From NCBI RefSeq assembly GCF_026210795.1, contig NC_089453.1, positions 1,614,501-1,678,500 on the forward strand: a stretch of 64,000 bases of DNA, in the 5' to 3' direction. Source of the DNA: Rhizophagus irregularis (Eukaryota > Glomeromycota > Glomeromycetes > Glomerales > Glomeraceae). The notes under the pieces were generated by a model that was not told where the DNA came from, did not search any database, and was given only the letters and a program-made list of their open reading frames with translations. Made by a program: the position numbers and the translations under genes. Shown piece by piece: positions 3,102 to 59,409 of this stretch; the first letter of the stretch is position 1, and each line of letters begins with the position of its first letter.

Positions 3102-4574
3102 CTATTTAATTACTTTTTCAATTTTATATTTATCAATCAGTCTCATATATGAATCATTTCGATAAAAATAATAATCTTCAAAAATAATGGAAATTGCAGG
3201 TCGTCCTTTCCATTTTTCAAAGAATGTTTCTAAAGTTTTTAAAGAAAACTTAATGCCATAAGGAATTGATATTTTTCTTAGATTTTTTGATGCATCTTTA
3301 ATTAAAGCATTTGACAAATAATCCCCATATTCTAACTCTACCTCTTTATCATAATACGTGTCTATAAAATATAATGATCGCAAATTCTGACATTTTTTAA
3401 GTAATTTTTCAAATTCAATAAAATGATTCTCTGATAATGGAAACATAGGAATTGATAAATGTTCAACTAAATAACAATTTTCACAAATTATACGTATAAA
3501 ATGAAGAGTGGTATCATCTAAACTATCGTAATCCCAGTAAAAATCATTGATCCATAATTCTTTAAGAAATGGGCTATTTTTTATTAAGCAAGAAACTTGG
3601 CAAATATCTACAAAACCCCTTAAGATCTCAAGGTCATGATAAGCCATCATTTCCATTTTTACAATAAAATCATAAGTATCTAAAAATGGAGGGGAACATA
3701 TTTCTAATGTTTTTAAATTATCAAATTCCAAAAGCGTATATTGTAAAAACGAATAATCATACTTATGAATATTGTAATTGTCGGAATAATGGTTATCATA
3801 ATGGTTATCAAACTGAAGGCTTATTTCAAGATGATTAAGAGTATTTGCATGTTTTTTTAATACGTTAAAAATTCCTGTATATGGGTCTTCTAATACTTCC
3901 CAGTAACAAAAGCCATCTTCTACTTCAAACTCATCTAACCATTTAAAATATTTTAAATTTTTTTGAAATTCGATTAGCTTAATAGTTCCCTGATTAGCTT
4001 TTAAATTTTTGTTAATAATGTTAATTCTTTGTATTTGTTGACAGATATTTGCTAATCTGTAAAAGTATCTAGGATCAATCAATGTGTCACAAGTTAATTC
4101 ACAAAGTGATTCAAGACGAACCTTTGCTTCTGGAAGATATACTATATCATAGGTACCAAATATACTTAAGTACTTTATTTCCGGACATTTATTTATCAAG
4201 AAACTGTAAATTTCCTCTTGTAAAAGAAATTTATTATATTCTGATGATGATCCAACGGAAATGATAATGTCTATAATTTCCATATCGATACTTATACAGA
4301 AAGACAAATAATCAAATGCAAGTGATCGGTCTGAAACTAGAATTCCTTTCTTTCTTAAGTATTCTTTGATATCATTGGATAAATAAGAAGTAATAATGGA
4401 GTATAAAGAATTTTTTTTATAACTAATAAAATAACACCAAGGATTCCTCCATAAAATTGGAATCACAGTTTCACACCAAATTTTATTAACCATTAGGCAT
4501 GAAAAGAGGAATTGTGGATCATCTTGTAATTCTTCAAATATCAAAAAAAGTGTATCTTTATTAAGTTTGAACAT
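3102..4574 (-). CDS. F-box protein, paralog 1
   Basis: A 490-residue single-exon protein. Residues 1-45 fit an F-box: the DTLFLIFEEL helix, a conserved SCLMVNKIWCETVIP segment and LWRNPW. The rest is Leu/Ile-rich with repeated 'L..L.I..' spacing, as in degenerate leucine-rich repeats that would bind substrate. F-box proteins of this kind join Skp1 and cullin in SCF ubiquitin ligases; the substrate is unknown. The start is the first Met in frame, 10 residues before the F-box core. It is the most distant of the five minus-strand paralogs and lies 28 kb from the next. Its promoter keeps the TATA and GTGAAACAT elements but lacks the GGTCGTACACCGGAG box of the others. Family assignment is strong; the specific role is unknown. 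Confidence 0.85.
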   Translation of the reverse strand: MFKLNKDTLFLIFEELQDDPQFLFSCLMVNKIWCETVIPILWRNPWCYFISYKKNSLYSIITSYLSNDIKEYLRKKGILVSDRSLAFDYLSFCISIDMEIIDIIISVGSSSEYNKFLLQEEIYSFLINKCPEIKYLSIFGTYDIVYLPEAKVRLESLCELTCDTLIDPRYFYRLANICQQIQRINIINKNLKANQGTIKLIEFQKNLKYFKWLDEFEVEDGFCYWEVLEDPYTGIFNVLKKHANTLNHLEISLQFDNHYDNHYSDNYNIHKYDYSFLQYTLLEFDNLKTLEICSPPFLDTYDFIVKMEMMAYHDLEILRGFVDICQVSCLIKNSPFLKELWINDFYWDYDSLDDTTLHFIRIICENCYLVEHLSIPMFPLSENHFIEFEKLLKKCQNLRSLYFIDTYYDKEVELEYGDYLSNALIKDASKNLRKISIPYGIKFSLKTLETFFEKWKGRPAISIIFEDYYFYRNDSYMRLIDKYKIEKVIK

Positions 4575-4642
4575 TTTTCTCCAAAAAAAAGAAAATAGAA
4601 ATAATAATAGGGAGAAAAAAAAACAAATAAATAATGTTAGTA

Positions 4643-4680
4643 CGTTTTATATAAAAATTCCCATAAATGATGTTTCACTA
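4643..4680 (-). promoter_or_regulatory. partial F-box family promoter
   Basis: On the minus strand a GTGAAACAT box precedes TTTTTATATAAAA, about 75 nt upstream of the ATG at 4574. The spacing resembles the other four paralogs, but the GGTCGTACACCGG box is absent here. Confidence 0.45.
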
Positions 4681-23819: not shown

Positions 23820-26800
23820 ATGGATGATGACACAAGTAATATAAAGTCTTTGAAATTTCAAATGATTATAAAACTTTGTTTAGGATGTAAATTTAAATCA
23901 AATTTCTTTAATTGGTGTGACGCATGTAAATTAAACCACTTTAAATTAAATTATGATAAATCCCCAAGTGGAAATAATGAAATTGACAATGGACTCAAAT
24001 ATTGTTATTCCAAAAGTGGATTATCAGAAGAATTTATTGAATGGATACCTTATAAAGAATTCAAAGATATTACGCATAATGTAATCATTAAAGAAACTTT
24101 TAGTGCTTTGTGGTCAAAAGGTTGCATTTGTGATTGGAATAAAGATAAATTTAACTGGAATCGAAAAATTAAAAAAGTAGTATTAGTGAATTTTAAGTAT
24201 AATATCGTTGATTTTTATGGGGTAAGTTATATTACTTTCTAAATCGTTCATCTTCTGCCTATAAATGATTCTATTTTAAGTGATATTTTATTATAAACAC
24301 CAACATTAGGTATTAAAAGAAAAAGAAAAATATAAACTTTATGGAATATCTAAGGATTTAACATCACATAGTTATGTATTGGTATTTGATGATGAAGGCT
24401 ATAATCAAAACTTATGTATAAAATGTCAAGTTTTATCCTATTTTTTTGACTGGTGTGAGAGTTGTAAACTGAATCATTTTCAATTAAATTATGGTGAATT
24501 TCCAAGTGGAAATAATGAAATTGACAAGATTCTTGAATATAATTATTGTAAAAGTAGATCATCAGGAGAATTAATTGAATGGATACCTTATGATGAATTT
24601 AAAGATATTGTACATATTGCGCATCATAAAGAAATTTACAGTGCTGATTGGCCAAAAGGTTATATCTGTGATTGGACTAGTAACAATCTTAACTGGGATC
24701 GAAGGACTAAAAATTTTAAAGTAATACTAATAAATTCTAAAGATTTAGACCATATATATAAGGTGAGTATTTTTACTAAATGAAACTTATGATTTTAATA
24801 AAATGGCCATATAGTAAAAAGTAACTATATTAAAAATTACACATTACAGATATTAAAAGCAGAAAAATATGTATATCAAGTTTATGGAATATCTAAGGAT
24901 CCAACATCACATAGTTATATATTGGTATTTGATTATGAAGGCTATAATCAAAACTTATGTATAAAATGTCAAGTTTTATCCTATTTTTTTGACTGGTGTG
25001 AGAGTTGTAAATTGAATCATTTTCAATTAAATTATGGAGAGTTTCCAAGTGGAAATAATGAAATTGACAAGATTCTTAAAGATAACTATTGTAAAAGTAG
25101 ATCACCAGGAGAATTAATTGAATGGATACCTTATGATGAATTTAAAGATATTGTACATATTGCGCATCATAAAGAAATTTACAGTGCTGATTGGCCAAAA
25201 GGTTATATCTGTGATTGGACTAGTAACAATCTTAACTGGGATCGAAGGACTAAAAATTTTAAAGTAATACTAATAAATTCTGAAGATTTAGACCATATAT
25301 ATAAGGTGAGTATTTTTACTAAATGAAACTTATGATTTTAATAAATAAAATGGCCATATAGTAAAAAGTAACTATATTAAAAATTACACATTACAGATAT
25401 TAAAAGCAGAAAAATATGTATATCAAGTTTATGGAATATCTAAGGATCCAACATCACATAGTTATATATTGGTATTTGATTATGAAGGCTATAATCAAAA
25501 CTTATGTATAAAATGTCAAGTTTTATCCTATTTTTTTGACTGGTGTGAGAGTTGTAAATTGAATCATTTTCAATTAAATTATGGAGAGTTTCCAAGTGGA
25601 AATAATGAAATTGACAAGATTCTTAAAGATAACTATTGTAAAAGTAGATCACCAGGAGAATTAATTAAATGGATACCTTATAAAGAATTTTATTATATTA
25701 AACCTATTGCAGATGATAAAAATAGTGCTATATGGTTGAATGATCATATCTACGATTGGAATAGTAATAATCTTAACTGGGATCGAAAGATTGAACATTT
25801 TAATGTAATGCTAATAAATTCTGAAGATTTAGACCATATATATGAAGTGAGTATTTTTTTCTAAATGAAACTTATAATTTTAATAAATTGACCATATAGT
25901 AAAAGTAACTATATTAAAATTACACATTACAGATATTAAAAGCAGGAAGATATGTGTATCAAATTTATGGAATATCTAAGGATCCAACATCACATAGTTA
26001 TATATTGATATTTGACGAAGAAGGCTATAATAACTTATGTATAAAATGTCAAATATTGTCCTATTTTTTTGACTGGTGTAAGAGTTGTAAACTGAATAAT
26101 TTTCAATTAAATTATGGAGAATTTCCAAGTGGAAATAATGAAATTGACAAGATTCTTAAAGATAATTATTGTAAAAGTAGATCACCAAGAGAATTAATTA
26201 AATGGATACCCTATAAAGAATTTTATTATATTAAACCTATTGCAGATGATAAAAATAGTGCTATATGGTTGAATCATCATATCTACGATTGGAATAGTAA
26301 TAATCTTAACTGGGATCGAAAGATTGAACATTTTAATGTAATGCTAATAAATTCTCAAGATTTAGACCATATATATGAAGTGAGTATTTTTTTCTAAATG
26401 AAACTTATAATTTTAATAAATTGACCATATAGTAAAAAGTAACTATATTAAAATTGTACATTACAGATATTAAAAGCAGGAAAATATGTGTATCAAATTT
26501 ATGGAATATCTAAGGATCCAACATCACATAGTTATATATTGATATTTGACGAAGAAAGCTATAATAAAAACTTATGTATAAAATGTCAAATATTGTCCAG
26601 TTTTTTTGACTGGTGTAAAAGTTGTAAACTGGACAATTTTCAATTAAATTACGGAGAATTTCCTAGTGAAAATGATGAAATTGACAAGATTCTTAAAGAT
26701 AATTATTGTAAAAGTAGATCATCAAAAGAATTTATTGAATGGATACCTTATGATGAATTTTATTATATTAAACCTATTGCAGATGATAAAAATAGTGCTA

Positions 26801-29718
26801 TATGGTTAAATGGTTATATCTGTGATTGGAATAGTAATAATCTTAACTGGAATCGAAAGATTAAAAACTTTAAAGTAATGTTAATAAATTCTGAAGATTT
26901 AGACCACATATATAAGGTGAGTATTTTTTCTAAACGAAACTTATAATTTTAATAAATTGACCATATAGTAAAAAGTAACTATATTAAAATTACACATTAC
27001 AGATATTAAAAGCTGGAAAGTATGTGTATCAAATTTATGGAATATCTAAGGATCCAACATCACATATTTATATATTGGTATTTGGCGATGAAGGCTATAA
27101 TCAAAACTTATGTATAAAGTGTCAAATATTGTCCAGTTTTTTTGACTGGTGTAAAAGTTGTAAGCTGGACAATTTTCAATTAAATTACGGAGAATTTCCT
27201 AGTGAAAATGATGAAATTGACAAGATTCTTAAAGATAATTATTGTAAAAGTAGATCATCAGAAGAATTTATTGAATGGATACCTTATGATGAATTTAAAG
27301 ATATAATACATATTGCAGATGATAAAAATAGTGCTATATGGTTAAATGGTTATATCTGTGATTGGAATAGTAATAATCTAAACTGGAATCGAAAGATTAA
27401 AAACTTTAAAGTAATGTTAATAAATTCTGAAGATTTAGACCATATATATAAGGTGAGTATTTTTTCTAAACGAAACTTATAATTTTAATAAATTGACCAT
27501 ATAGTAAAAAGTAACTATATTAAAATTACACATTACAGATATTAAAAGCTGGAAAATATGTGTATCAAATTTATGGAATATCTAAGGATCCAACATCACA
27601 TATTTATATATTGGTATTTGACGATGAAGGCTATAATCAAAACTTATGTATAAAGTGTCAAATATTGTCCAGTTTTTTTGACTGGTGTAAAAGTTGTAAG
27701 CTGGACAATTTTAAATTAAATTACGGAGAATTTCCTAGTGAAAATGATGAAATTGACAAGATTCTTAAAGATAATTATTGTAAAAGTAGATCATCAGAAG
27801 AATTTATTGAATGGATACCTTATGATGAATTTAAAGATATAATACATATTGCGTATCATGAAGAAATTTACAGTGCTGATTGGCCAAAAGGTTGTATTCG
27901 TAGTTGGGATAAAGATAAATTTAACTGGAGTCGAGAAGTTAAAAGAGTAATACTGGTGAATTTTAAGTATAACGTCAATGATTTTGATAAGGTAAGTTAC
28001 AATACTTATTAAAACTTCATCTTCTTTGAATGATTATATTTTAACTAAAGAGATATTTCATTAATATAAACGTCATGCATTAGGTGTTAATTGAAAAAAA
28101 AAAATGTAAATTTTATGGAATATCTAAAGATTTGTCATCATTAGTATCTAATTATATACTAGTGTTTGATGATAAAGGCTATAATCAAAACTTATGTATA
28201 AAATGTCAATTCTTATCCTATTTTTTTAACTGGTGTAAGAGGTGTAAACTGTGTCATTTTCAATTAAATTATGGTAAACTTTTAAGTGAAAATAAGGATA
28301 TTGACGTTATTCTTAAAGGTAATTATTGTAAAAGTAATAAAATGAGCGAATTCATTGAATGGATACCATATAGTTCATTTATTGATATTAGTTATATTAA
28401 CCAAGGAGGGTTTTCAAAAGTATATAGTGCTTTATGGCTAAATAATAATATATACGAATGGGATCAAATAGAATTAGAATGGAAGCGTTTAAGTGGATAT
28501 AAAAAGGTAGTTTTAAAAGTTCTTGAAAGTTCTTGTTATAATATTTCAGGATTTTTACAAGAAGTAAGTGTGAATTGTAAATTTTATTTTTTATATCAGC
28601 ATATACTTAATATTTTATTTATTTTTAGGTACAATCATATTGTAAAATAGGATTTTCTCATAAAATCACTAAGCTTTATGGTATATCAAAAGAACCAAAT
28701 ACACAAAATTATGTATTAGTATTAGAATATATAAATCACGGAAGTTTGCGAGGTTTTTTAGATAAATATAACAAATATTTGATTACAACATATAAAATTA
28801 GAATATTAAAAAATATTGCTGAAGGCATTAAAGAAATTCATTCAAAAAATATCATTCATCAAGATATTCATTCTGAAAATATATTAACTAAAGATTTTGA
28901 TAGAGCTAAAATAACTGATCTTGGATTAAGTAAATTTGTCAGCCGTGATGAAAAGAAAGAAAATGTTTATAAGGTATATGGAAATTTACCTTATATTGCT
29001 CCAGAAGTATTAAGAGGAAAACGATATACCCAAAACGCGGATATTTATGCGTTTGGAATTATTATTAATGAAGTATTCACTGGAGAAAGACCTTTTCATG
29101 ATGTAATTGATGATAACCTTATGTTAGATATCTGTAAAAATGGGTTGAGACCAAAAATTGGTAAAAATACACCTAAATCTTTAGTTCATTTATTAAATAA
29201 ATGTTGGGATGCAACACCTTCAAATCGACCAACAGTAGATGAAATAATTCAAAAATTAAACCATTTTGAAACTGATGATATTATTTTTGAAGAGTTAAGA
29301 AATTACAACAATGGAGTAATAAAACAATATTTTGAATTAACTAGTAAATCAGATCATTTAAAAACATCGAATAGTAGTAAATTACATTCAATAAACCCAT
29401 CAAATTTTACAGGTAATTTTAATAATTATTCATTTTATAATTGGCTACTATTAATTAATATAAAATTATCACGATCAGGGGTTTTATACTGTTGCATTTC
29501 AAATGAAAATGAAGAAATTGGTAGTGCGTCAACTTCTAGGAACAATTATCAAGTAACTAATTTATCAAGTGAAACAGGTAAATTTATCAAAATTTATTAT
29601 TGCATATATAAAATTACTCTTAACAACAATTTATTGTATATTAAAAGTAATAATAGATGATAGTTCAGAATGTGATAATTGCATTATTAAATTGAATTTA
29701 TCAGGTAATTATACATAA
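23820..29718 (+). CDS. tandem-exon zinc-motif/pseudo-N-lobe kinase
   Basis: Eleven exons are predicted: 23820-24221, 24310-24762, 24850-25305, 25397-25846, 25933-26379, 26467-26916, 27003-27452, 27539-27991, 28084-28563, 28629-29577 and 29648-29718. That gives about 1686 residues (1664 if a 66-nt intron at 29413-29478 is also removed). Introns between repeats are phase 0. Exons 1-9 each encode a zinc motif (CxxC, then WCxxC, KL..F.LNYG), an EWIPY-type linker and a kinase N-lobe. Only exon 9 keeps the glycine loop (NQGGFSKVY) and the VAIK-type lysine (VVLKVL); exons 1-8 have V or I there and no glycine loop. Exon 10 supplies the rest of the kinase: EYINHGSLR hinge, HQDIHSEN (HRD Arg replaced by Gln), DLG and APE. 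Tyrosine-kinase-like family; substrate unknown. The exon chain is inferred from splice sites and phase. Confidence 0.75.
24310..28083 (+). repeat. tandem exon-intron array, about 540-bp unit, seven copies
   Basis: Units start at 24310, 24850, 25397, 25933, 26467, 27003 and 27539 (period 534-547 bp). Each is an exon of 149-152 codons plus an intron of 86-92 nt. The inner introns are almost identical, with GTGAGTATTTTT donors and ACATTACAG acceptors; the last intron differs. The near identity of exons 3 and 4, introns included, points to recent unequal crossing-over or gene conversion. Confidence 0.9.
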
Positions 29719-32764: not shown

Positions 32765-34222
32765 TTATAGGAAAATATCTTTAATTACTTTTTCAACTTT
32801 ATATTTATCAAACAGTTTCACATATGAATCATCTTTTTGATAAAAATAATAATCATCAAAATGAATGGAAATTGCAGGTCGTCCTTTCCATTTTTCAAAG
32901 AATGTCTCTAAAGTTTTTAAAGAAAACCTAATATCAAAAGGAATTATTAATTTTCTTAGATTTGTTGATGCTACTTTAATTAATACATTTGATAAATAAT
33001 CCCCAAACTCAAGCTCATTCCCTCCTTTAATATTTGTTGTGTGTTTTAAATATAATAATCGCAAATTTTGACAATTTTTAAGTAATTTTTCAAATTCAAT
33101 AAATTGATTTTCTAAAAACATAGGGACTGTTAAATGTTCAATTAAAAAACAATTTTCACAAATTGTACGAAAAAAATTAAGTGAGTCATTATAATAATTA
33201 TCATAATTCCAGTCAAAATCATTAACCCTTAATTCTCTAAGACATAAACTATTTTTAACTATGCAAGTAACTTGATAAATATCTATAACATCTATCTCTA
33301 TAATTTCAAGGTTACGATAAGCTACCATTTCCAATTCTTTACTGAAATAATCATCATTATTTAGAAATATAGGAGCCTCAATTTCTAATATTTTTAAATT
33401 ATAAAGTTCTAGGAATGCATCTTGTAGAAATGAATAATCATATTCGTTGAAAAACTCATCATCAAACTGAAGGTTTATATCAAAATGATTAAGAGTATTT
33501 GCATGTTTTTTTAATACGTTAAAATTTTCTGTATAAGGATCTTCCAATAATTCCCAAAAATCATCTTCTTTAAATTCATCTACCCATTTAAAATATTTTA
33601 TATTCTTTTGAAATTCGATTAACTTAATAGTTCCATGATTAACTTTTAAATTTTTGTTAATAATGATAATTCTTTGTATTTGTTGACAAATATGCGCTAA
33701 TCTGTAAAAGTACTTAGGATCAATCAATGTGTCACATGTTAATTCACAAAGTGATTCAAGGCGGACCTTTGCTTCTGGAAGATGTACTATCTCATAGGTA
33801 CCACATATGTTCAAGTATTTTATTTCTGGACATTTCTTTATCAATAAACTGTAAATTTCCTCTTGTAAAAGAAATTTATTATATTCTAATGATGATCCAA
33901 TGGAAATTATATCATTTATAATTTTTATATCGATACTCCTACAGAAAGACAAATAATCAAATGCAAGTGATTGACCTGAAATTTGAATTCCTTTCTTTGT
34001 TAAGAATTCTTTAATATCATTGGATAAATAAGAAGTAAGAATATAATATAAAGAAAATTTTTTATGATAATCAATAGCATAGTGCCAAGGTTTCCTCCAT
34101 AAAATTGGAATCACGGTTTCACACCATATTCTATTAACCATTAGGCATGAAAAGAGTAATGTTGAATCATCTTGTAATTCCTCAAATATTAAGAAAAGAA
34201 TATCCTTATTAAGTTTAGACAT
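32765..34222 (-). CDS. F-box protein, paralog 2
   Basis: A 485-residue single-exon protein. The N-terminus (LNKDILFLIFEELQDD, then SCLMVNRIWCETVIP and LWRKPW) is an F-box that would bind Skp1. The remainder is Leu-rich with degenerate repeats, including a conserved block KCPEIKYLNICGTYEI near residue 130 and KKHANTLNHF near residue 235. The C-terminus (FFEKWKGRPAISI) is near-invariant among the paralogs. It would act as a substrate receptor of an SCF ubiquitin ligase; the target is unknown. The start Met immediately precedes the F-box and lies about 85 nt downstream of the shared promoter motif. Compared with paralogs 1, 3 and 4 it lacks a few residues around 215-225. It appears intact. Confidence 0.87.
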   Translation of the reverse strand: MSKLNKDILFLIFEELQDDSTLLFSCLMVNRIWCETVIPILWRKPWHYAIDYHKKFSLYYILTSYLSNDIKEFLTKKGIQISGQSLAFDYLSFCRSIDIKIINDIISIGSSLEYNKFLLQEEIYSLLIKKCPEIKYLNICGTYEIVHLPEAKVRLESLCELTCDTLIDPKYFYRLAHICQQIQRIIIINKNLKVNHGTIKLIEFQKNIKYFKWVDEFKEDDFWELLEDPYTENFNVLKKHANTLNHFDINLQFDDEFFNEYDYSFLQDAFLELYNLKILEIEAPIFLNNDDYFSKELEMVAYRNLEIIEIDVIDIYQVTCIVKNSLCLRELRVNDFDWNYDNYYNDSLNFFRTICENCFLIEHLTVPMFLENQFIEFEKLLKNCQNLRLLYLKHTTNIKGGNELEFGDYLSNVLIKVASTNLRKLIIPFDIRFSLKTLETFFEKWKGRPAISIHFDDYYFYQKDDSYVKLFDKYKVEKVIKDIFL

Positions 34223-34304
34223 TTTTCTTCTTCAAAAAAAAAATAGAAATAATAGGGAGAGAAAAAATAAACGAATTAAGAATAATGAATGAGCAACGAT
34301 GTCA

Positions 34305-38292: not shown

Positions 38293-39756
38293 CTATACGT
38301 TTATATCTTTAACTACCCCTTCAATCTTATATTTATTGATCAGTTTCCTATATGAATCAGTTTGATAAATATGAAAATCAACTAAATAGATGGAAATTGC
38401 AGGTCGTCCTTTCCATTTTTCAAAGAATGCCTCTAAAGTTTCTAAAGAAAACCTAATGCCAAAAGGAATTCCTATTTCTTTTAGATTTGTTGATGCTTCT
38501 TTAATTAACACATTCGACAAATAATCCCAATACTCGAACTCATTCCCTTCTCTAATACATGACGTGTATATAAAATATAATGATCGCAAATTTTGACATC
38601 TTTTAAGTAATTTTTCAAATTCAATAAAGTAATTTTCCAATAATGGAAACATAGGGATTGTTAAATATTCAATTAAAAAACAATTTTCATAAATTGTACG
38701 AATAAAATTAAGAGAGTCATCATTAAAAGAATCTTTTTCTGTGTAAAAATAATTGATCTTTAATTCTCTAAGAAATAAGCTATTTTTAATTATGTAATTA
38801 ACTTGGTAAATATATATAAACTCAATTTCTATGAATTCAAGGTTACGAAAAGTCATCATTTCCAATTCATTATTAAAATCATCATTATTTGACAATAGAG
38901 GAGAATTAATTTTTATTATTTTTAAATTATGAAGTCCTAGGAGTGCGTCTTGTAGAAATGTATAATCACCATCATTATTGTAATTATCGGAATAACTAAC
39001 AAACTGAAAATGATTAAGAGTATTTGCATGCTTCTTTAATACATTAAAAATTTCTGTATAAGGATCTACCAATAATTCCCAATAATGAAAGCCAACTTCT
39101 ACTTTAAATTCATCTACCCATCGAAAATATTTTAAATTTTTTTGAAATTCGAGTAACTTAGTAGTTCCATGATTAACTTTTACGTTTTTATTAATAATAA
39201 TAATTCTTTGTATTTGTTGACAGATATGTGCTAATCCGTAAAAATACTTAGGATCGATCAATGTGTCACATGTTAATTCATAAAGTGATTCAAGATGTGC
39301 CTTTGCTTCTGGAAGATATAATATCTCATAGGTGCCACATATATTTAAGTACTTTATTTCTGGACATTTCTTTATCAACAAACTATAAATTTCCTCTTGT
39401 AAAAGAAATCGATTATATTCTAATGGTGATCCAATGGAAATTATTTCATCTATAGTTTCTATATTGATACTCCTACAGAAAGACAAATAATCAAACGCAA
39501 ATGATTGGCTTGAAATTTGAATTCCTTTCTTTGTTAAGAATTCTTTAATATCATTGGATAAATAAGAAGTAAGAATAGAATATAAAGAATTTCTTGTATG
39601 ATAATCAACAGCATAGTACCAAGGATTCCTCCATAAAATTGGAATCACGGTTTCACACCAAATTTTATTAACCATTAGGCATGAAAAGAGGAATGTTGAA
39701 TCATCTTGTAATTCCTCAAATATCAAGAAAAGAATATTTTTATCAAGTTTGGACAT
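38293..39756 (-). CDS. F-box protein, paralog 3
   Basis: A 487-residue single-exon protein. The N-terminal F-box (LDKNILFLIFEELQDD, then SCLMVNKIWCETVIP) is followed by Leu/Ile-rich degenerate repeats and the FFEKWKGRPAISI C-terminal block. Long stretches, for example ENCFLIEYLTIPMFPLLENY, are identical to paralog 4, so these two arose from the latest duplication. Predicted role: Skp1-binding substrate receptor in an SCF complex, target unknown. The Met chosen directly precedes the F-box and lies just downstream of an A-rich leader and the conserved promoter. Intact frame. Confidence 0.87.
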   Translation of the reverse strand: MSKLDKNILFLIFEELQDDSTFLFSCLMVNKIWCETVIPILWRNPWYYAVDYHTRNSLYSILTSYLSNDIKEFLTKKGIQISSQSFAFDYLSFCRSINIETIDEIISIGSPLEYNRFLLQEEIYSLLIKKCPEIKYLNICGTYEILYLPEAKAHLESLYELTCDTLIDPKYFYGLAHICQQIQRIIIINKNVKVNHGTTKLLEFQKNLKYFRWVDEFKVEVGFHYWELLVDPYTEIFNVLKKHANTLNHFQFVSYSDNYNNDGDYTFLQDALLGLHNLKIIKINSPLLSNNDDFNNELEMMTFRNLEFIEIEFIYIYQVNYIIKNSLFLRELKINYFYTEKDSFNDDSLNFIRTIYENCFLIEYLTIPMFPLLENYFIEFEKLLKRCQNLRSLYFIYTSCIREGNEFEYWDYLSNVLIKEASTNLKEIGIPFGIRFSLETLEAFFEKWKGRPAISIYLVDFHIYQTDSYRKLINKYKIEGVVKDINV

Positions 39757-39816
39757 TTTTCTTCAAAAAAAAAAAAATAGAAATAATAGGGAGAAAAAAA
39801 ATAAACGAATTATTGA

Positions 39817-42561: not shown

Positions 42562-43936
42562 CTACTCTAGCCTTAGTGTTTAAATAAATTTAAAAAGAAT
42601 AAAATAAAACAATTTCTTTTGAATGTGTAATATCAAATATCACTTAAAAAAAAATTATAAATTTTTTTAAAAACAAACAATGATTAGTTAATTTTCATCT
42701 AGTATTAATATCTAAATAATTAAATAAAAGAAATCAATTTTACATAAATAATTTACAAGATTTCTTTATATATTACATACCTAATAGCTTCAAATTAACC
42801 ATACATTCGCTCAAACCTTCACTTTCAAGAACTTCATTCAATTTTTCACTAGTAAAATCAAGTAAGCGACTTGTATAATATGCTTCTGGATGTGATTCAG
42901 TAACAGGATTGCTATGCTGCCCAATTGGTGCATTTATAAATTCCATAATGTTGCTTTTTAATTCTTCACTGACTTCATAATTATGAGGAGGGAAAATCCA
43001 TTTTTCAATAATTTCAGATACTTCTTTAGAAGATGGTCTTTTTGATGAATCCTCATTCCAACATTTTTTCATTAATTCTACATAACATTGTGGAATATTT
43101 TCAATAATTTCAGGACGTTCACCTCTACAAATACTTAAACTAAGTTGAATATCATGTGCTCTGTTATTAAATGGTGGTACCCCGGATGTAAGTTCCCACA
43201 TAATCATAGAAAAACTATATATATCACTAGCTGGCGTATAAGATTTGCCTCTTAAAACTTCAGGAGCCATAAATGGCACTACACCATAAATATCATACTT
43301 TTTCAAAAATGATTTTACAGGTTGGCATAATCCTAAATCACTAATAAAAATTTTATCACTATTCTCATAATTATAATTTAAAATATTACCATCATGAATA
43401 TCACAATGAATAAGATTTTCTCTATGTATCCCACTTAGTCCAGAAATAATTTCGTACAACATATATAATTTTCGATTCCAATTATTTTTGACTATTCTTG
43501 TTAAATTTTCTCTTAAATTACCTTTATTTGCGTAATCCATTACTACCATATATTTTGAAATATTTGGATCTTTTGTAAATCCATAAAAATATATAATATT
43601 GACTGAACTTAAAACACTTGAATTATGATATTCCCACTATAAAAAATAATAATAATTTATTAATATAAATAAATAAATTATAATTTAAATTAAGAATAGA
43701 AAATAATATACTATCATACTTCTTTTAAAAATTCATTTAAATTTTCATTTAAATTCTTGTGACATTTAAGAATTACTTCTTTATCTTCATAATTATTTAA
43801 CCAAGTAACTTTATATATAGTACCAAATCCTCCTTCATTAAGATATTCAACATTTTTAAATTTGTTATATGGAATCCATCTTAAATTTTTTTTAAGAATA
43901 AAATCATCTATAATCGTATTTCCACTTTTCCCAAAT
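42562..43936 (-). CDS. TKL-type protein kinase, 5' exon(s) not identified
   Basis: Predicted exons (minus): 43936-43720, 43636-42781 and a 5-nt terminal exon 42566-42562 (AG TAG). Exon 1 encodes SGNTIIDDFI, the linker RWIPYNKF, glycine loop NEGGFGTIY and lysine VILKC. Exon 2 gives the rest: hinge MDYANKGNLRENL, catalytic loop HCDIHDGN (HRD Arg is Cys), DLG, MAPEVLRG and CWNEDSSKRPS. Ser/Thr or dual specificity is expected from the family. The first exon begins in phase 2, so at least one upstream exon with the zinc motif is missing; it should lie beyond the minisatellite at 44265-46260. The terminal exon is inferred by analogy with kinase gene 3, which has the same CTAAG..TAG|AGTAG sequence. 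Confidence 0.7.
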
Positions 43937-44139
43937 CTATAAATTTGAATAATTAAAATTATATTATAGATATTATAGATTGTATTATAATTTACACAAA
44001 ACAAATTATTACTTACTCTAAATTTAAATAGGAATTTAATGTAATATATATAAGTCTTAATTTTTGGAAAAATACATATAATAACCTATAATTAACAACT
44101 TACCAACTAAAGTAATATATATTTTTCAAATGAAAGAAT

Positions 44140-47311: not shown

Positions 47312-48757
47312 CTATATATTTATATCTTTAATTACTCCTTCAATCTTATATTTATCGACCAGTTTCATATATGAATCAGTTTGATAAATATAATACTCAA
47401 CTATATGAATGGAAATTGCTTGTCGTCCTTTCCATTTTTCAAAGAATGCTTCCAAAGTTTCTAAAGAAAACCTAATGCCACGAGGAATTCCTATTTTACT
47501 TAGATTTGTTGGAGCTTCTTTAATTAACACATTTGATAAGTAATCCCCATATTCTAAATCTTTTCCTTTTTCATGTTCTTTTTCAAAATATAAAGATCGT
47601 AAATTCTGACATTTTTTAAGTAATATTTCAAATTCAATAAAGTAATTTTCCAATAATGGAAACATAGGGATTGTTAAATATTCAATTAAAAAACAATTTT
47701 CATAAATTGTACGAATAAAATTGAGAGAATCATAATTAAAAGAATCTTTTTCTACGCAAAAATGATTGATCCTTAATTCTCTAAGAAATAAGCTATTTTT
47801 AATTATGTAATTAACTTGGTAAATATATATAAAATCTATTTCTATAAACTCAAGGTTACGATAAGCCACCATTTCCAATTTTTTATTAAAATCATCATTT
47901 GAAAATGGAGGAGAACTAATCTTTAATACTTTTATATTATGAAGTTCTAGGAGTACGTCTTGTAGAAATGTATAATCACCATCATCATGGTAATTATCTA
48001 ATGAATTATCAAACTGGAAATGATTAAGAGTATTTACATGCTTCTTCAATGCATTAAAAATTTCTGTATAAGGATCTTCCAACATGTCCCAATAATACAT
48101 GTCATTTTCTACTTCAAATTCATCTACCCATTCAAAATATTTCAAATTTTTTTGAAATTCGATTAATTTAGTAGTTCCAGGATTAACTTTAAAGTTTTTA
48201 TTAATAATGATGATTCTTTGTATTTTTTGACAGATATGTGCTAATCTGTAAAAATACTTAGGATTAATCAATGTGTGACACGTTAATTCACAAAGTGATT
48301 CAAGGCGGAACTTTGCTTCTGGAAGATGTAGTATATCATAGGTGCCACATATATTTAAACACTTTATTTCTGGACATTTCTTCATCAAGAAACTATAAAT
48401 TTCATCTTGTAAAAAAAATCGTTGTAATGATCCAATGGAAATTATAACATCTATAATTTCTATATTAATACTCCTACAGAAAGACAAATAATCAAATGCA
48501 AGTGATTGACCTGGAATGTTGATTTTTTTCTTTGTGAATAATTCTTTAATATCATTGGACAAGTAAGAAGTAAGAATAAAATATAAAGAATTTTTATTAT
48601 AATAATCAATAGAATAGCGCCAGGGGTTCCTCCATAAAATTGGAATCACGGTTTCACACCAAACTCTATTAACCATTAAGCATGAAAAGAGGAATTTTGG
48701 ATTATCTTGTAATTCCTCAAATATCAAAAAAAGAATATCTCTATTAAGTTTAGACAT
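47312..48757 (-). CDS. F-box protein, paralog 4
   Basis: 481 residues from the Met at 48757. The in-frame upstream Met adds only a Phe-rich stretch translated from the leader's T-run and is rejected. F-box at residues 1-45 (LNRDILFLIFEELQDN, then SCLMVNRVWCETVIP and LWRNPW), then Leu-rich degenerate repeats. The FFEKWKGR.AISI block near the C-terminus has Gln where the others have Pro. It is closest to paralog 3. Predicted SCF substrate receptor. The conserved promoter lies 55-110 nt upstream. Intact frame. Confidence 0.86.
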   Translation of the reverse strand: MSKLNRDILFLIFEELQDNPKFLFSCLMVNRVWCETVIPILWRNPWRYSIDYYNKNSLYFILTSYLSNDIKELFTKKKINIPGQSLAFDYLSFCRSINIEIIDVIISIGSLQRFFLQDEIYSFLMKKCPEIKCLNICGTYDILHLPEAKFRLESLCELTCHTLINPKYFYRLAHICQKIQRIIIINKNFKVNPGTTKLIEFQKNLKYFEWVDEFEVENDMYYWDMLEDPYTEIFNALKKHVNTLNHFQFDNSLDNYHDDGDYTFLQDVLLELHNIKVLKISSPPFSNDDFNKKLEMVAYRNLEFIEIDFIYIYQVNYIIKNSLFLRELRINHFCVEKDSFNYDSLNFIRTIYENCFLIEYLTIPMFPLLENYFIEFEILLKKCQNLRSLYFEKEHEKGKDLEYGDYLSNVLIKEAPTNLSKIGIPRGIRFSLETLEAFFEKWKGRQAISIHIVEYYIYQTDSYMKLVDKYKIEGVIKDINI

Positions 48758-48810
48758 TTTTCTTTGAAAGAAAAAAAAAAAATAGGGGGAAAATAAACAA
48801 ATAGAATACA

Positions 48811-48865
48811 TATTTATATATTTCGGTGTACGACCATTATGTTGATCGACAATGTTTCACCGATG
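48811..48865 (-). promoter_or_regulatory. conserved F-box family promoter
   Basis: Minus strand: CATCGGTGAAACATTG, then TCGATCAACATAATGGTCG, then TACACCGAAATATATAAATA, ending about 55 nt upstream of the ATG. It is the longest version of the family motif, with GGTGAAACATTG, GTCGATCA and GGTCGTACACCG all present. Confidence 0.65.
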
Positions 48866-52673: not shown

Positions 52674-54146
52674 TTACACATTCATTTCTTTAATTACTCC
52701 TTCAATTTTATATTTATCGATCAATTTCATATATGAATCATTTTTTTGATAAAAATAATACTCATCGACATATATAGAAACTGCAGGTCGTCCTTTCCAT
52801 TTTTCAAAAAATACCTCTAAATCTTTTAAAGAAAATCTAATATCATTAGGAATTCCAATTTCTCTTAGATTTTTTGATGCTTCTTTAACTAATATATTTA
52901 ACAAATAATCTCCAAATTCTAATTCTCTCTGTTCTTCATAATATGCTTCTTGAAAATATAATGATCGCAAATTTTGACATTTTTTAAGTAATTTTTCAAA
53001 TTCAGTTAAATGATTCTCAAATAATGGAAAAACAGGAATTGTTAAATATTCAATTAAAAAACAATTTTCATTAATTGTATGTATAAAATTAAGAGAGCCA
53101 TCAATAATATTATCATTCCAGTGAAAATCATTGATCCTTAATTCTTTAAGATTTAAGCAATTTTTTATTATATAAGTAACTTGATAAATATCCATATAAT
53201 CTATCTTTAAAATCTCAAGGTCACGATAAGTTACCATTTCCAATTTTTCATTAAAATCATCATTACTTAAAAATAAAGGTGAATCAATATCTATTATTTT
53301 TAAATTATGAAGTCTTAAGAGTGTATATTGTAGAAATGAATAATCATAATTACTGTAATTGCAATTATTGTCATAATCAAATAGAAGGGTTATTTCAAAA
53401 TGATTAATAGTATTTGCATGTTTTTCTAACATGTTAAAAATTTTTGTATAAGGATCTTCCAATAATTCCCAATAATAAAAGCCATCTTCTTCTTTAAAAT
53501 CATCTATCCATTTAAAATATTTTAAATTTTTTTGTAATTCAATTAATTTAGTAGTTCCAGGATTAGCTCTTATGTTTTTGTTAATAATGATTATTCTTTG
53601 TATTTGTTGACAAATATTTGCTAATTTGTAAAAGTACCTAGGATCGATCAATGTGTTAATTGTTAATTCACAAAGTGATTCGAGACGGTTCTTTGTTTCT
53701 GGAAGATATAATATCTCACGGGTACCACATATACTCAAATACTTTATTTCTGGACATTTCTTTATTAATAAACTATAAATTTCTTCTTGTAAAAGGAATT
53801 GATTATATTCTGATGATGTTCCAATGGAAATTATGTTATCTATAATTTTTGTATCAATACTCTTACAGAATGACAAATAATCAAATGTAAGTGATTGGCT
53901 TGAAATTAGAATTTCTTTTTTTGTTAAGAATTCTTTAATATCATTTAATAAATAAGAAGTAAGAATAGAATATAAAGAATTTTTTTTATGATAATTAATA
54001 TTATAGCACCAAGGATTTTTCCATAAAATTGGAATCATGATTTCACACCAAATTCTATTAACCATTATGCATGAAAAGAGGAATATTGAATTATCTTGTA
54101 ATTCCTCAAATATCAAGAAAAGAATATCTTTATTAAGTTTGGACAT
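52674..54146 (-). CDS. F-box protein, paralog 5
   Basis: 490 residues from the Met at 54146. A 91-residue upstream extension in the same frame is rejected: it runs through the conserved promoter and a T-run, is hydrophobic and Phe-rich, and has no counterpart in paralogs 1-3. F-box at residues 1-45 (LNKDILFLIFEELQDN, then SCIMVNRIWCEIMIP), with two substitutions in the normally invariant CETVIP. Leu-rich repeats follow, then FFEKWKGRPAVSI. Predicted Skp1-binding SCF substrate receptor. Intact frame. Confidence 0.86.
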   Translation of the reverse strand: MSKLNKDILFLIFEELQDNSIFLFSCIMVNRIWCEIMIPILWKNPWCYNINYHKKNSLYSILTSYLLNDIKEFLTKKEILISSQSLTFDYLSFCKSIDTKIIDNIISIGTSSEYNQFLLQEEIYSLLIKKCPEIKYLSICGTREILYLPETKNRLESLCELTINTLIDPRYFYKLANICQQIQRIIIINKNIRANPGTTKLIELQKNLKYFKWIDDFKEEDGFYYWELLEDPYTKIFNMLEKHANTINHFEITLLFDYDNNCNYSNYDYSFLQYTLLRLHNLKIIDIDSPLFLSNDDFNEKLEMVTYRDLEILKIDYMDIYQVTYIIKNCLNLKELRINDFHWNDNIIDGSLNFIHTINENCFLIEYLTIPVFPLFENHLTEFEKLLKKCQNLRSLYFQEAYYEEQRELEFGDYLLNILVKEASKNLREIGIPNDIRFSLKDLEVFFEKWKGRPAVSIYVDEYYFYQKNDSYMKLIDKYKIEGVIKEMNV

Positions 54147-54222
54147 TTTTTCTTCGAAAAAAAAAAAAAAAAATAGGGGAGAGAAAAAAAATAAATGATT
54201 AATAAATAAACAATGAAATATA

Positions 54223-54285
54223 CCGTATTTATATGAAACTCCGGTGTACGACCTGTATGACCATAATGCTGATCGATAATGAATA
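54223..54285 (-). promoter_or_regulatory. conserved F-box family promoter
   Basis: Minus strand: ATTATCGATCAGCATTATGG, then a duplicated TCATACA/GGTCGTACACCGGAG box, then TTTCATATAAATA, about 80 nt upstream of the ATG. Confidence 0.62.
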
Positions 54286-54289
54286 TATA

Positions 54290-55242
54290 TGGTAAATGTA
54301 GGATCTTCGGTTTTAGGGTAATTTAAACAATATATAAACATACAAATAAAATTATTCTGAATGAAAAAAATCAATAAATAAAATGTTAAAATTCTTAAAA
54401 AATTCTGATTTTGAAACATATCTAAGTTTAATTAAAAGCTGAGCAAAGAAAAAAAAAGTAATACTATTTTTAAAAAAAATAATTTTAGTTTTTCGTCAAA
54501 AAGTAGTTTAAAAGCTTACCATCCCTAGTCAAGGAGTGACCCAATTTATTGAGAACCATAAATGAGAATTCCTACTTATGTGCAGAACTGGATATTAATG
54601 TTTCTTCTTTACTTAATTTCATCAAAATTAATTTGTTTCTTTTTTTATGTTTAGAAAAAAAATATAGAAATTAACTTACTGATTACTATAATACTTAAAT
54701 TATTACTATTTTTAAATTAACATTCCATGTATAATACAGTAATAAACTACTGGGTTAAACCTTTGGTTTGAATCAGTTTAATTAAAGTGAAATTACACAG
54801 TTCCAAAATGCGCTGTTAGTTGGTTTCAACCCAAACTAATACGCTCTAATTTTAAATAACCAATAATCTTCATATAAAATAATAAATATTAGTATTTTGC
54901 ACTAGTAAATTTTATTACCATGTGTAAGATTATTATTATTAACAATTTTAATTACAAATTTTTAAAATTAACTTTATTAAAGTCTAATGTCGCGAATAAA
55001 TTTTTATAATTTGCAATAAGATTGGATAACGTTCGATAATTTAAAAGTATTGTTTATTAACGTTGATTTTTTTTTTTTTTGAAAAATAAAATTTTCTATT
55101 GAATACTCGAATCTAAATTTTAGCTAATAAAGTGACTTTAATTTGTACTATCATCGAAATATTAATCTTTTTTTTCTTAATATAATAGAAGAATCAAAAT
55201 CAACATTAAAAAATTTGAATAATTTAAATAAATAAATATATA
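54290..55242. other. intergenic, no supported gene
   Basis: A/T-rich. No gene, RNA or clear repeat was recognised. Confidence 0.4.
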
Positions 55243-56798: not shown

Positions 56799-59325
56799 CT
56801 ACTCTAGTCTTAGTGTTTAAATAACCCAAAATAAATAAATAGAATAGATAAATAAATAATTGATAATAATTTAAAATATAACAAAAAATTGTTAAATGAT
56901 TTAAAATCCATCTAAAGATAAAAAATAAATTATAAATTAATTATTTGCTTTAAAAAGAAATTTAATTTATTTAAGAACTTACCATCAGGAATTTCCAGTT
57001 CATCTTGTTCTTCTGAATGAAGATTTGGATTATTATATACTTCGTCTTCATCTATAAGAAATAAATAATTAAATTAAAAAATAATATAAAAATTAAATTA
57101 AAAATTAGCATACCATCAATATCACCAATATTTTGTCTTTTCGTTCTTTGTTGAATTATTTCTTTTTCATCATCTAAATTTTTAAATTAAAGCTACATTA
57201 AATAAAATATATTGACAAAATAATTTTTATTTTTTTTTTTGCTTACCATCAATATCAATATCTTTCCTTTTCATTTGTTGTTGAATTATTTCTTTTTCGT
57301 CATATTATTTTTTAAAATAAAAGTCACGTTATTTAATAAATGAAACTGATACAATGAATATTATTATTTCGCTTATTTACTTACTATTTGAATTTATCTG
57401 CAAATTTATAAATTCTTTGGGTAATTTTTCACTATCACCTAAAATTAAAAACATAGAAATAGATTTTAATATTTTTAAAATCTATTATTTCAAACAAATC
57501 ATCTTTAAAATATTTATTAATAATTTCTTACTATACTGCTTATTTGATCCAAAATCGTTAACTAAACAAATATTAATTGTTAAACATTATTATATAATAC
57601 TTCAACGCTATAACATTAAATACAGTACTTACTATTTTTAGGAATGTTAAAATCATACAATTTACTATGAAACACTATTAGTAGTAAATTAAAGTATTAA
57701 ATATTTTAAAAACTGAATTATTATAAAAAATTGTAGAAATTATTATTTATACGGTTATACCTTCTTGTTCTTCTATTATAATATAAATTCAAAAATAGAT
57801 AATATTAATAATATATTTTAAAATAAATACATTCATTAATAAATATTATACACTTATACCTTCTGTTGCATTTCTTGGTTCAGGTAGATTTCCAAAGTTG
57901 TGGATTTTACTTGTAAATAATCTGCTACTCGTATAATTTTCTTCTGCTTTATTCATTTCTAATTTATCCACTATTTCTGATTTGAATAATTCATCTGACA
58001 TATTTTGATAATCTAAATTAATTCTTCTCATTTTTCTCTCAAGTGCATAAACGTCAGGTCTTTTTAATGGATCAACATCCCAACATTCTTTCATTAAATT
58101 TTTATATTCAAATGGAGTTCCTGGCACAATTTTTGGTCTTATACCGTTAATAATATTCATTACAATATCATTTTCATGTTCATAATTTATAAATGGTGGT
58201 TGTCCAGATGAAATTTCCCACATAAGAATTGCAATACTATAAATATCAGATGCAAAAGTATATTCTCTTCCAACAATAACTTCGGGTGCTATGTAAGGAA
58301 GATTTCCATATATACTTGTTGAAGATTTATCAGCAGGTCCACAAAATCCAAGATCACTAACATGCCAAGAATTATTAAGTTGAGAATGTAATATATTTCC
58401 AGAATGTAAATCTCTATGAATTGCTTCCTCATCATGAATATAACTAAGTGCAAGAATTATTTCATAAGCAATATTAATTCTCTTTTTCCATGTAAGTTGA
58501 TTATGATTTTGTTGTAAATATTTTCTTAAATCTATATCCATTTTCTCTATTACAAGCATGTAATTTCCATTTGATGGATTTTGCGTTAAACCAAAACATC
58601 GAACAACATCTGCCCATTTATTACTTATAGTTAAATGTGATTTAGCCTAAAAGACAATAATTTGTAAAAATGCTTATATTAATACAAAGTGTGCATAATT
58701 TCATGCAATAAATTTAGAATATAATTATACAAACCTCTTCAAACCATCTTTGATTTGCACTTTCAACATTTTCTAATTTTTTTAATATTACTTTGAAATT
58801 TCCAAATCTTTTTAATTGTTTTTTTTCAAAATCCCATTCTTTATACTTTCCATTAATCCAATCTGCTGTATAAATTTCTGAGAATCCACCTTTTGTTAAA
58901 TATTTAATATTTTCTAAATTACTATATGGGATCCATTCAACAATCATGAATGGATTAAGTGATTCCATTTGACATTTCTGTATTAAATTATCAATATCAT
59001 CATTTCCAGATGTCCAATTTGAAAAATCTTCTTTTAAATAATTTCGAACACAATATTCACAATATAATGTGGCTAAACATTCTTGGTTACAATTTTCACA
59101 AATTCTTGTTGTTCCTGAATTAAAAATAACTTTATTTCGATCATAATTTTTAACTAATATTCTTATTGCATAAGTTTTTTCATCATTTGTAAGAATTTTA
59201 TCAGCAAGGACTGTTTGTTTTTGAAATTCAAATCGTTTGTGTATATCATCGTAAATATTAGTATCTGTTAATGTTGTTGCTCTATTATTTGTTGCATTAA
59301 TTAACCCATATCGAAGAGTGGACAT
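56799..59325 (-). CDS. TKL-type protein kinase with zinc motif and multi-exon tail
   Basis: Predicted exons (minus): 59325-58735, 58646-57860, 57772-57761 (12 nt), 57674-57633, 57438-57385, 57173-57114, 57051-56983 and 56803-56799. After the first, all junctions are phase 1, and the total is 539 residues. Exon 1 starts MSTLRYGLINAT and has a CENCNQECLATLYCEYC zinc motif, SGNDDIDNLI, the EWIPYSNL linker, glycine loop TKGGFSEIY and lysine VILKKLE. Exon 2 has HRDLHSGN (HRD intact), SDLGFCG and APEVIVG, so the catalytic motifs are complete. The tail exons encode short acidic/polar peptides such as DSEKLPKEFI and DEKEIIQQR. A further tail-exon copy at 57303-57247 lacks an AG acceptor. The closest thing here to a normal family member. 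Confidence 0.8.
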
Positions 59326-59409
59326 AATGTAATCAATAAGAAAGAAATAAATAATTATTTTAAGTTCGTTACTCGATAGATTAGTAAAATGCAAATTGTT
59401 GATCAAACT

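Follow-up and report, generated by a model that had tools for sequence, protein, structure and literature searches.

What could a gene do with half of a kinase domain that it repeats many times and completes only once? The question is raised by a predicted gene in a 64,000-nucleotide (nt) stretch of the genome of the arbuscular mycorrhizal (AM) fungus Rhizophagus irregularis (contig NC_089453.1, positions 1,614,501 to 1,678,500 of the forward strand; hereafter the window, in which positions are counted from the first letter). The gene, at 23820-29718 on the plus strand, carries nine tandem modules, each with a cysteine motif and parts of a kinase amino-terminal lobe (N-lobe), and ends in a single kinase. 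The same layout, with an intact N-lobe at the end of the array, recurs across the R. irregularis genome, and we tentatively favour an explanation in which the modules form a string of docking or sensing units.

Gene structure and the terminal kinase

The predicted gene has 12 exons that join in frame to 4,974 nt and encode 1,657 amino acids (aa) and a stop. A first-pass annotation, made from the sequence alone, had already read it as one gene ending in one kinase; its length of about 1,690 residues exceeds that of the present model. The predicted features are as follows.

23820-24221, plus strand: exon 1, Met start, cysteine motif 1, N-lobe 1 β1-β3 and the first half of αC; no β4-β5 ahead
24310-24762, plus strand: exon 2, N-lobe 1 β4-β5, cysteine motif 2, N-lobe 2 β1-β3/αC (dead)
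24850-25305, plus strand: exon 3, module 3 (dead)
25397-25846, plus strand: exon 4, module 4 (dead); front resembles module 3, back resembles module 5
25933-26379, plus strand: exon 5, module 5 (dead)
26467-26916, plus strand: exon 6, module 6 (dead)
27003-27452, plus strand: exon 7, module 7 (dead)
27539-27991, plus strand: exon 8, module 8 (dead); similar, at its 3' end and in intron 8, to exon 1 and intron 1
28084-28563, plus strand: exon 9, module 9, the sole module with a glycine loop (QGGF), β3 Lys (VVLK) and αC Glu
28629-29412, plus strand: exon 10, β4-β5 and kinase carboxy-terminal lobe (C-lobe; HQD, DLG, APE); PF07714 E 1.3e-45
29479-29577, plus strand: exon 11, predicted C-terminal tail; the alternative is read-through to 29660
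29669-29718, plus strand: exon 12, predicted tail end and stop

Exons 2-8 measure 151, 152, 150, 149, 150, 150 and 151 codons and lie, as first described, between a related first exon (134 codons) and a related last one (exon 9, 160 codons). Each of exons 1-9 has a length divisible by three, and they are joined at predicted phase-0 GT-AG introns; introns 1-8 are 86-92 nt long and intron 9 is 65 nt. The predicted exons 10-12 (784, 99 and 50 nt) are not phase 0, and this tail is the least certain part of the model. The motif CxxC...WCxxC occurs nine times in the 1,657-aa protein, once in each module as the annotation had it, against a mean of 0.0005 per protein in 2,000 shuffles. The nine modules, which are not independent of one another, contain no stop codon. 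Tandem Repeats Finder, which handles periods up to 500 nt, listed nothing for the array, whose period is about 535-547 nt.

The eight dead N-lobes of the first-pass annotation, with the glycine loop and VAIK lysine in module 9 alone, are borne out by the aligned columns of this gene. Across modules 1 to 9, the residues aligned with the glycine-loop Gly are I, H, H, D, D, D, D, H, G, and those aligned with the VAIK lysine (β3 Lys) are V, I, I, I, I, I, I, V, K. The downstream exons complete a kinase, as had been proposed: exon 10 supplies a C-lobe with HQD, DLG and APE. Together with QGGF, VVLK and the αC Glu these give the terminal unit its catalytic residues, and kinase activity is predicted from sequence; the glycine loop is minimal (NQGGFSKV) and HQD replaces HRD. 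Joined, exons 9 and 10 matched PF07714 at 170.7 bits (E 4.9e-50; Pfam cut-off 23.1).

Pfam detected no kinase in any single module of exons 1-9, including the live exon 9, nor in joined units from this gene and from two further loci, L012 and L004. In a scan of exons 1-10, the families above curated cut-offs were the kinase families of exon 10 alone. Pfam is thus blind to single module exons, and domain annotation shows only the C-lobe end. A profile built on 32 dead N-lobes in spliced form, including one from this gene and one from a sister array (L001, described below), likewise found no kinase among PDB sequences, with chance matches only (best E 0.34, HLA). As a control, the live N-lobe alone was compared with PDB sequences and retrieved one distinct sequence, a kinase, at E 0.48. 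Since this control was nearly silent too, the silence reflects a short, divergent N-lobe and not its death as such. The inner units are read as kinase N-lobes because of their similarity to the terminal module: an hhalign comparison of the dead-N-lobe profile with the terminal N-lobe of this gene gave a full-length alignment (99.3%, E 1.6e-20, 35% identity).

Module boundaries

When exons 9 and 10 are joined and aligned with PDB sequences, exon 9 ends on the residue matching the glutamate in the EGFR ILDEAY stretch, which we take to be the αC glutamate. An inner exon is thereby predicted to run from just after the αC-Glu position through β4-β5, the cysteine motif and β1-β3 to the next αC-Glu position. 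With the break placed there, each N-lobe is split between two neighbouring exons. Modules of zinc motif and N-lobe stand as first described, but the exon unit is not a zinc motif followed by an N-lobe. Among the sampled arrays, GT immediately followed the αC-Glu codon in 263 of the 276 modules with a letter in that column (164 of these being Glu), which fits, rather than proves, a splice donor. The first cysteine lies 17-25 residues after the β4 YG glycine, a spacing that places the cysteine knuckle where the hinge to a C-lobe would be.

A single-module relative lies in the window at 57849-59409 on the minus strand, with the cysteine motif, the NWTSGN segment and a live glycine loop. It has the same exon break, ...FEE followed by Val in a codon that starts with GT, and it is a plausible example of the ancestral layout.

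Array kinases across the genome

The first-pass annotation had presented a single unusual gene. Its layout holds and its singularity does not, as the gene belongs to a large class in the R. irregularis genome. With one module as query, many of the best 150 of 3,180 matches lay about 0.5 kb apart, and two other modules behaved likewise. In a census pooling three module queries (best 150 of 3,180, 4,336 and 4,950 candidates) and keeping rows that reach β4-β5 (90, 148 and 143 of 150), we counted at least 353 distinct exons in at least 145 clusters, at least 74 of which held two or more exons.

We read 38 regions which, with the window, were stitched into 31. The first 20 and ten later new ones had been picked as array-like; the eight others extend earlier regions. 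All 31 are one-strand arrays of 3-14 modules (296 module hits, a split module counting as two hits) followed by a kinase C-lobe. There is a single C-lobe per array in 31/31, and up to 13 N-lobes precede it. Gly and Phe, the β3 Lys and the αC Glu were jointly intact in 31/31 last modules and in 3/265 others. The three non-terminal exceptions carry QGDFF, and two of them are copies of each other. A cruder test, GG[FY], gave 30/31 last modules and 1/265 others, the exceptions being the last module of L035 (KGCF) and a truncated module of L032. These residue counts leave out hidden Markov model (HMM) hits of less than 100 residues ending by profile position 54, which are β4-β5 pieces belonging to the C-lobe exon and a few fragments; the GG[FY] counts also leave out pieces short of profile position 95. 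Among the C-lobes, HxD..HxxN was present in 30/31, DxG in 29/31 and APE in 28/31, the three without APE having matched a short frame. The C-lobe of the L032 array is without the HxD..HxxN pattern.

As a check on biased picking, we took a random sample of ten regions from the single-hit clusters, 69 out of 71 being eligible; the remaining two lie in L019, which had already been read. All ten were multi-module and nine reached a C-lobe; GG[FY] was found in 9/9 last and 0/41 other modules. No C-lobe was reached in the tenth, L048, which carries six modules and overlaps L016; two of the six had already been read there. Array kinases would be hidden from annotation because Pfam sees the kinase end alone. 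No relatives beyond R. irregularis were found in the scanned viral contigs and prokaryote genomes.

Three loci deserve separate description. About 42 kb downstream of this gene, on the minus strand, lies the sister array L001 (G000:C25:1685000-1692500), with five modules and an HQD/DLG kinase. Its first exon shares 119/134 residues with that of this gene, and the two form an inverted pair of 9 and 5 units. At L025+L015 (G000:C14:710000-723999), near-identical array copies lie about 7.6 kb apart and were treated as one array of 14. Within the sequence read, only the downstream copy is completed by a C-lobe; the upstream one terminates in a fragment followed by a gap of 3.6 kb. L048 and L016 together (G000:C7:1062500-1071495, minus strand) comprise four modules, a gap of about 3.5 kb, and three modules with a kinase, and are either one interrupted array or two genes.

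Array evolution and coding constraint

The nearest relative of a last module was another array's last module in 27/31 cases, and that of a first module was a first module elsewhere in 14/31. For internal modules, the nearest relative was another internal module of the same array in 156/234 cases and an internal module elsewhere in 58/234. The pattern indicates that the ends are fixed and that the middle multiplies locally. In this gene, introns 2-7 are 93-100% alike, adjacent modules differ by at least 4% in nucleotides, and exons 2-8 differ by 7-32% at the protein level. Adjacent-pair identity is 92% for modules 2-3, 85% for 3-4, 93% for 4-5, 87% for 5-6 and 93% for 6-7. The mosaic module 4, the similarity of the introns and the first exon shared with L001 point to exchange through introns between fixed ends.

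Internal modules (n = 234) kept the first, second and last cysteines in 224, 225 and 226 cases, and the third in 106. The β3 Lys was kept in 196, the αC Glu in 119 and the glycine-loop Gly in 23. Lys occupied the αC-Glu position in 82 of the 234, a frequent charge reversal. The usual losses are thus of the glycine loop, and often of the αC Glu, rather than of the β3 Lys; this gene and L001 are the only two of the 31 arrays in which the VAIK Lys is lost from every non-terminal module.

We compared nonsynonymous with synonymous differences per site (pN/pS) for 715 module pairs from 30 arrays in 33 windows of the alignment. Values were lowest, at 0.30-0.42, from IHFQQNF to IQDTQLS (FQQNFTNWTSGN...IDKFIQDTQL) and, separately, in EWIPYDQF; a single intervening window gave 0.58. 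The windows over the cysteines gave 0.46-0.58, and the glycine loop and β2 hairpin mostly 0.7-1.0. Four of the 33 windows exceeded 1: two ahead of EWIPY (1.43, the highest, in the linker, and 1.05), one where the exon starts (1.28) and one before β3 (1.04). The corresponding substitution-rate ratio (dN/dS) was 0.24-1.0 among exons 2-8 of this gene, and the per-array medians of the 31 arrays were 0.40-0.85. Diversifying selection had been hinted at first by an amino acid identity below the nucleotide identity, and is rejected as a general feature by these ratios.

Reading frames have also been kept. When neutral change of 0.1 per site was simulated on modules 2-8, about 3.7 stops arose per module and 2% of modules remained stop-free. 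In the 31 regions, a 3-nt gap, such as one stop would leave, divides four modules, and a few others are incomplete or were detected as two pieces. The protein is thus clearly, but not strongly, under selection.

A putative multivalent string and its alternatives

We propose that an αC-to-αC exon, comprising β4-β5, the cysteine knuckle, a helical segment and β1-β3, may have been multiplied in tandem upstream of a complete kinase. The knuckle is probably a zinc site and the NWTSGN..ID.FIQ segment is probably helical. Exon n+1 would supply, with its first strands, the rest of the N-lobe of unit n, and the protein would be a string of knuckle-helix domains, each on an N-lobe that has neither a glycine loop nor a C-lobe. 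The last N-lobe alone would be kept intact, because it alone joins a C-lobe. The knuckle-helix units would act as docking or recognition sites at which a partner or ligand collects in multiple copies; clustering by the string would control the terminal kinase, and unit number would set avidity. On the evidence of the lowest pN/pS, the knuckle-helix part would be the working element and the N-lobe its seat and spacer. We infer a scaffold or sensor role for the string, and hold, with slightly less than even confidence, that it is a multivalent docking and sensing device controlling one terminal kinase.

Several observations weigh against this proposal. The third cysteine is a gap in 126 of the 234 internal modules; with this residue so often absent, the metal site may differ between subfamilies. 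The zn-ribbon_14 match was weak (E 0.33, 10.9 bits; Pfam cut-off 34.9), and Zn_ribbon_3CxxC on an L012 unit, at E 0.01, was below the Pfam cut-off. Structure prediction of one module, as the first-pass annotation had suggested, was run on module 7, and the AlphaFold model was unusable (predicted local distance difference test score, pLDDT, 40.1), as was that of exon 9 with nine window rows (pLDDT 44.6). Module 5 of L032 (G000:C5:5264500-5272000), truncated and internal, has a live-type loop, QGGFDKVY. The β3 windows (VILK) gave a pN/pS of 0.51-0.55, much as the cysteine windows did, so the N-lobe is not simply slack. Constraint is moderate, with a median within-array dN/dS of 0.58 over 926 non-independent non-terminal pairs, 56 of them above 1. 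It is weaker still relative to the intron rate, since the 5' parts of introns diverge slightly less than synonymous sites in 27/27 arrays with enough pairs, a divergence figure that is itself lowered by gapped alignment of AT-rich introns.

Moderate dN/dS, and introns no more diverged than synonymous sites, would also be seen if the kinase alone mattered and unequal crossing-over between near-identical introns kept adding in-frame modules that are tolerated while they slowly decay, the string itself having no function. The local mosaic duplication of module 4, and the loss of the glycine loop almost everywhere except at the array end, speak for the same process. We nevertheless consider this explanation unlikely, because hardly any internal module has lost its cysteines, pN/pS is lowest in the helix segment, stops are rare (four split modules in 296 hits, set against the simulated expectation) and the layout recurs at dozens of loci.

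The array could instead be a bank of exons, in which alternative choice among near-equal phase-0 exons would yield many short kinases differing in one or a few modules. Any subset of exons 1-9 would stay in frame, as all are multiples of three, and exons 2-8 differ among themselves by 7-32% in protein. Short introns favour constitutive, intron-defined splicing, however, and those between the modules are just 86-92 nt. An internal module joined straight to the C-lobe exon would, moreover, give a kinase with a dead N-lobe. This arrangement seems to us quite improbable.

Retention of the β3 Lys in 196/234 and of the αC Glu in 119/234 internal modules, the constraint on β3 and the alignment of the whole dead N-lobe to the live one would suit a role as kinase decoys or regulators. 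Dead N-lobes would then pair with the terminal or some other kinase through the αC/N-lobe face, in the manner of RAF/KSR and HER pairs, or bait factors that target kinases. A precedent for bait is that the pseudokinases of wheat tandem kinases have been proposed as decoys (PMC11153570). Such a role finds little encouragement in the glycine-loop and β2-hairpin part, which is less constrained than the knuckle-helix part, in the change of αC Glu to Lys in 82/234 modules, or in the overall lack of diversifying selection, and we regard it as decidedly unlikely.

Arrays are hard to assemble, but a misassembly or a row of separate genes is very improbable, given adjacent modules that differ by at least 4% in nucleotides, a layout repeated in 30 more regions and at nine additional randomly chosen places, a similar published assembly that used Nanopore reads with an N50 of 24,957 bp, longer than this 5.9-kb gene (PMC10234402), and introns of 86-92 nt, which leave little inter-module space for gene ends, separate promoters or terminators.

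The multivalent string can be generalised, more doubtfully, to an undescribed class of AM-fungal receptor-like kinases with up to 13 units of knuckle plus dead N-lobe, exon duplication at the αC intron and one live kinase, acting as repeat-based sensors of self, host or microbe. So read, the class counts at least 40 genes (31 arrays and nine random picks) and perhaps more than 100. If many such genes are strings of 3-14 units, the repertoire would be a repeat-based system in which units are gained, lost and shuffled, and a plausible substrate for recognising hosts, partners and nonself. It would also mean that a kinase N-lobe, half of a globular domain split by a mid-helix intron, is usable as a tandem repeat, and that domain-based annotation misses most of such proteins.

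Other open frames in the window

A second single-module kinase lies at 42776-44085 on the minus strand (PF07714 E 1.4e-33), with a live-type N-lobe and an upstream open frame without the cysteine motif. Five long open frames of 488-585 aa (32768-34231, 38296-39762, 3105-4646, 47315-48856 and 52677-54431, minus) had no Pfam match at E 0.01; the frame at 32768-34231 is F-box-like by eye.

Comparison with known kinases and repeat proteins

The first-pass annotation had known of no described protein with this layout, and we found none in the literature searched on AM-fungal kinases and kinase-lobe repeats, subscription journals and supplements aside. Among the nearest known counterparts are the expanded tyrosine-kinase-like (PF07714) kinases of R. 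irregularis itself. For this fungus 2,533 kinases have been reported (PMC10234402); PF07714 is the motif that occurs most often among its inflated genes (PMC6123716), and expanded families are reported to form tandem arrays of duplicate genes on occasion (PMC8647823). The terminal module and exon 10 of our gene make up just such a PF07714 kinase. The published arrays are arrays of genes, however; in the portions of these papers available to us, the expansion is counted without being explained and N-lobe arrays inside one gene go unmentioned.

The wheat tandem kinases (WTKs) such as Pm57 and Lr9 also combine a dead kinase unit with a live one in a single chain. The JAK family are tandem kinase-pseudokinase proteins as well. 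Such proteins have two complete kinase folds, whereas each of our 31 arrays has one C-lobe. In the WTKs one of the two kinase domains is a pseudokinase (PMC11153570); here the dead N-lobes have no C-lobe of their own.

Fungal HET-E-type NOD-like receptors (NLRs) resemble the present genes in having long intragenic arrays, local duplication and a unit number that varies between paralogues. The identity used to define NLR repeats, more than 85% over at least 100 residues, is reached by module pairs 2-3, 4-5, 5-6 and 6-7 and not by the others. The NLR repeats are of WD, ANK or TPR type, with positively selected sites (PMC4986451). The unit of this gene, in contrast, is a knuckle plus a kinase N-lobe, its dN/dS is below 1 overall, and positive selection of the NLR type was not seen on the repeats in pairwise estimates (median within-array dN/dS 0.58). 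The array genes thus look like known kinases in which half of the kinase domain has, it seems, been put to a new use, as a repeat unit.

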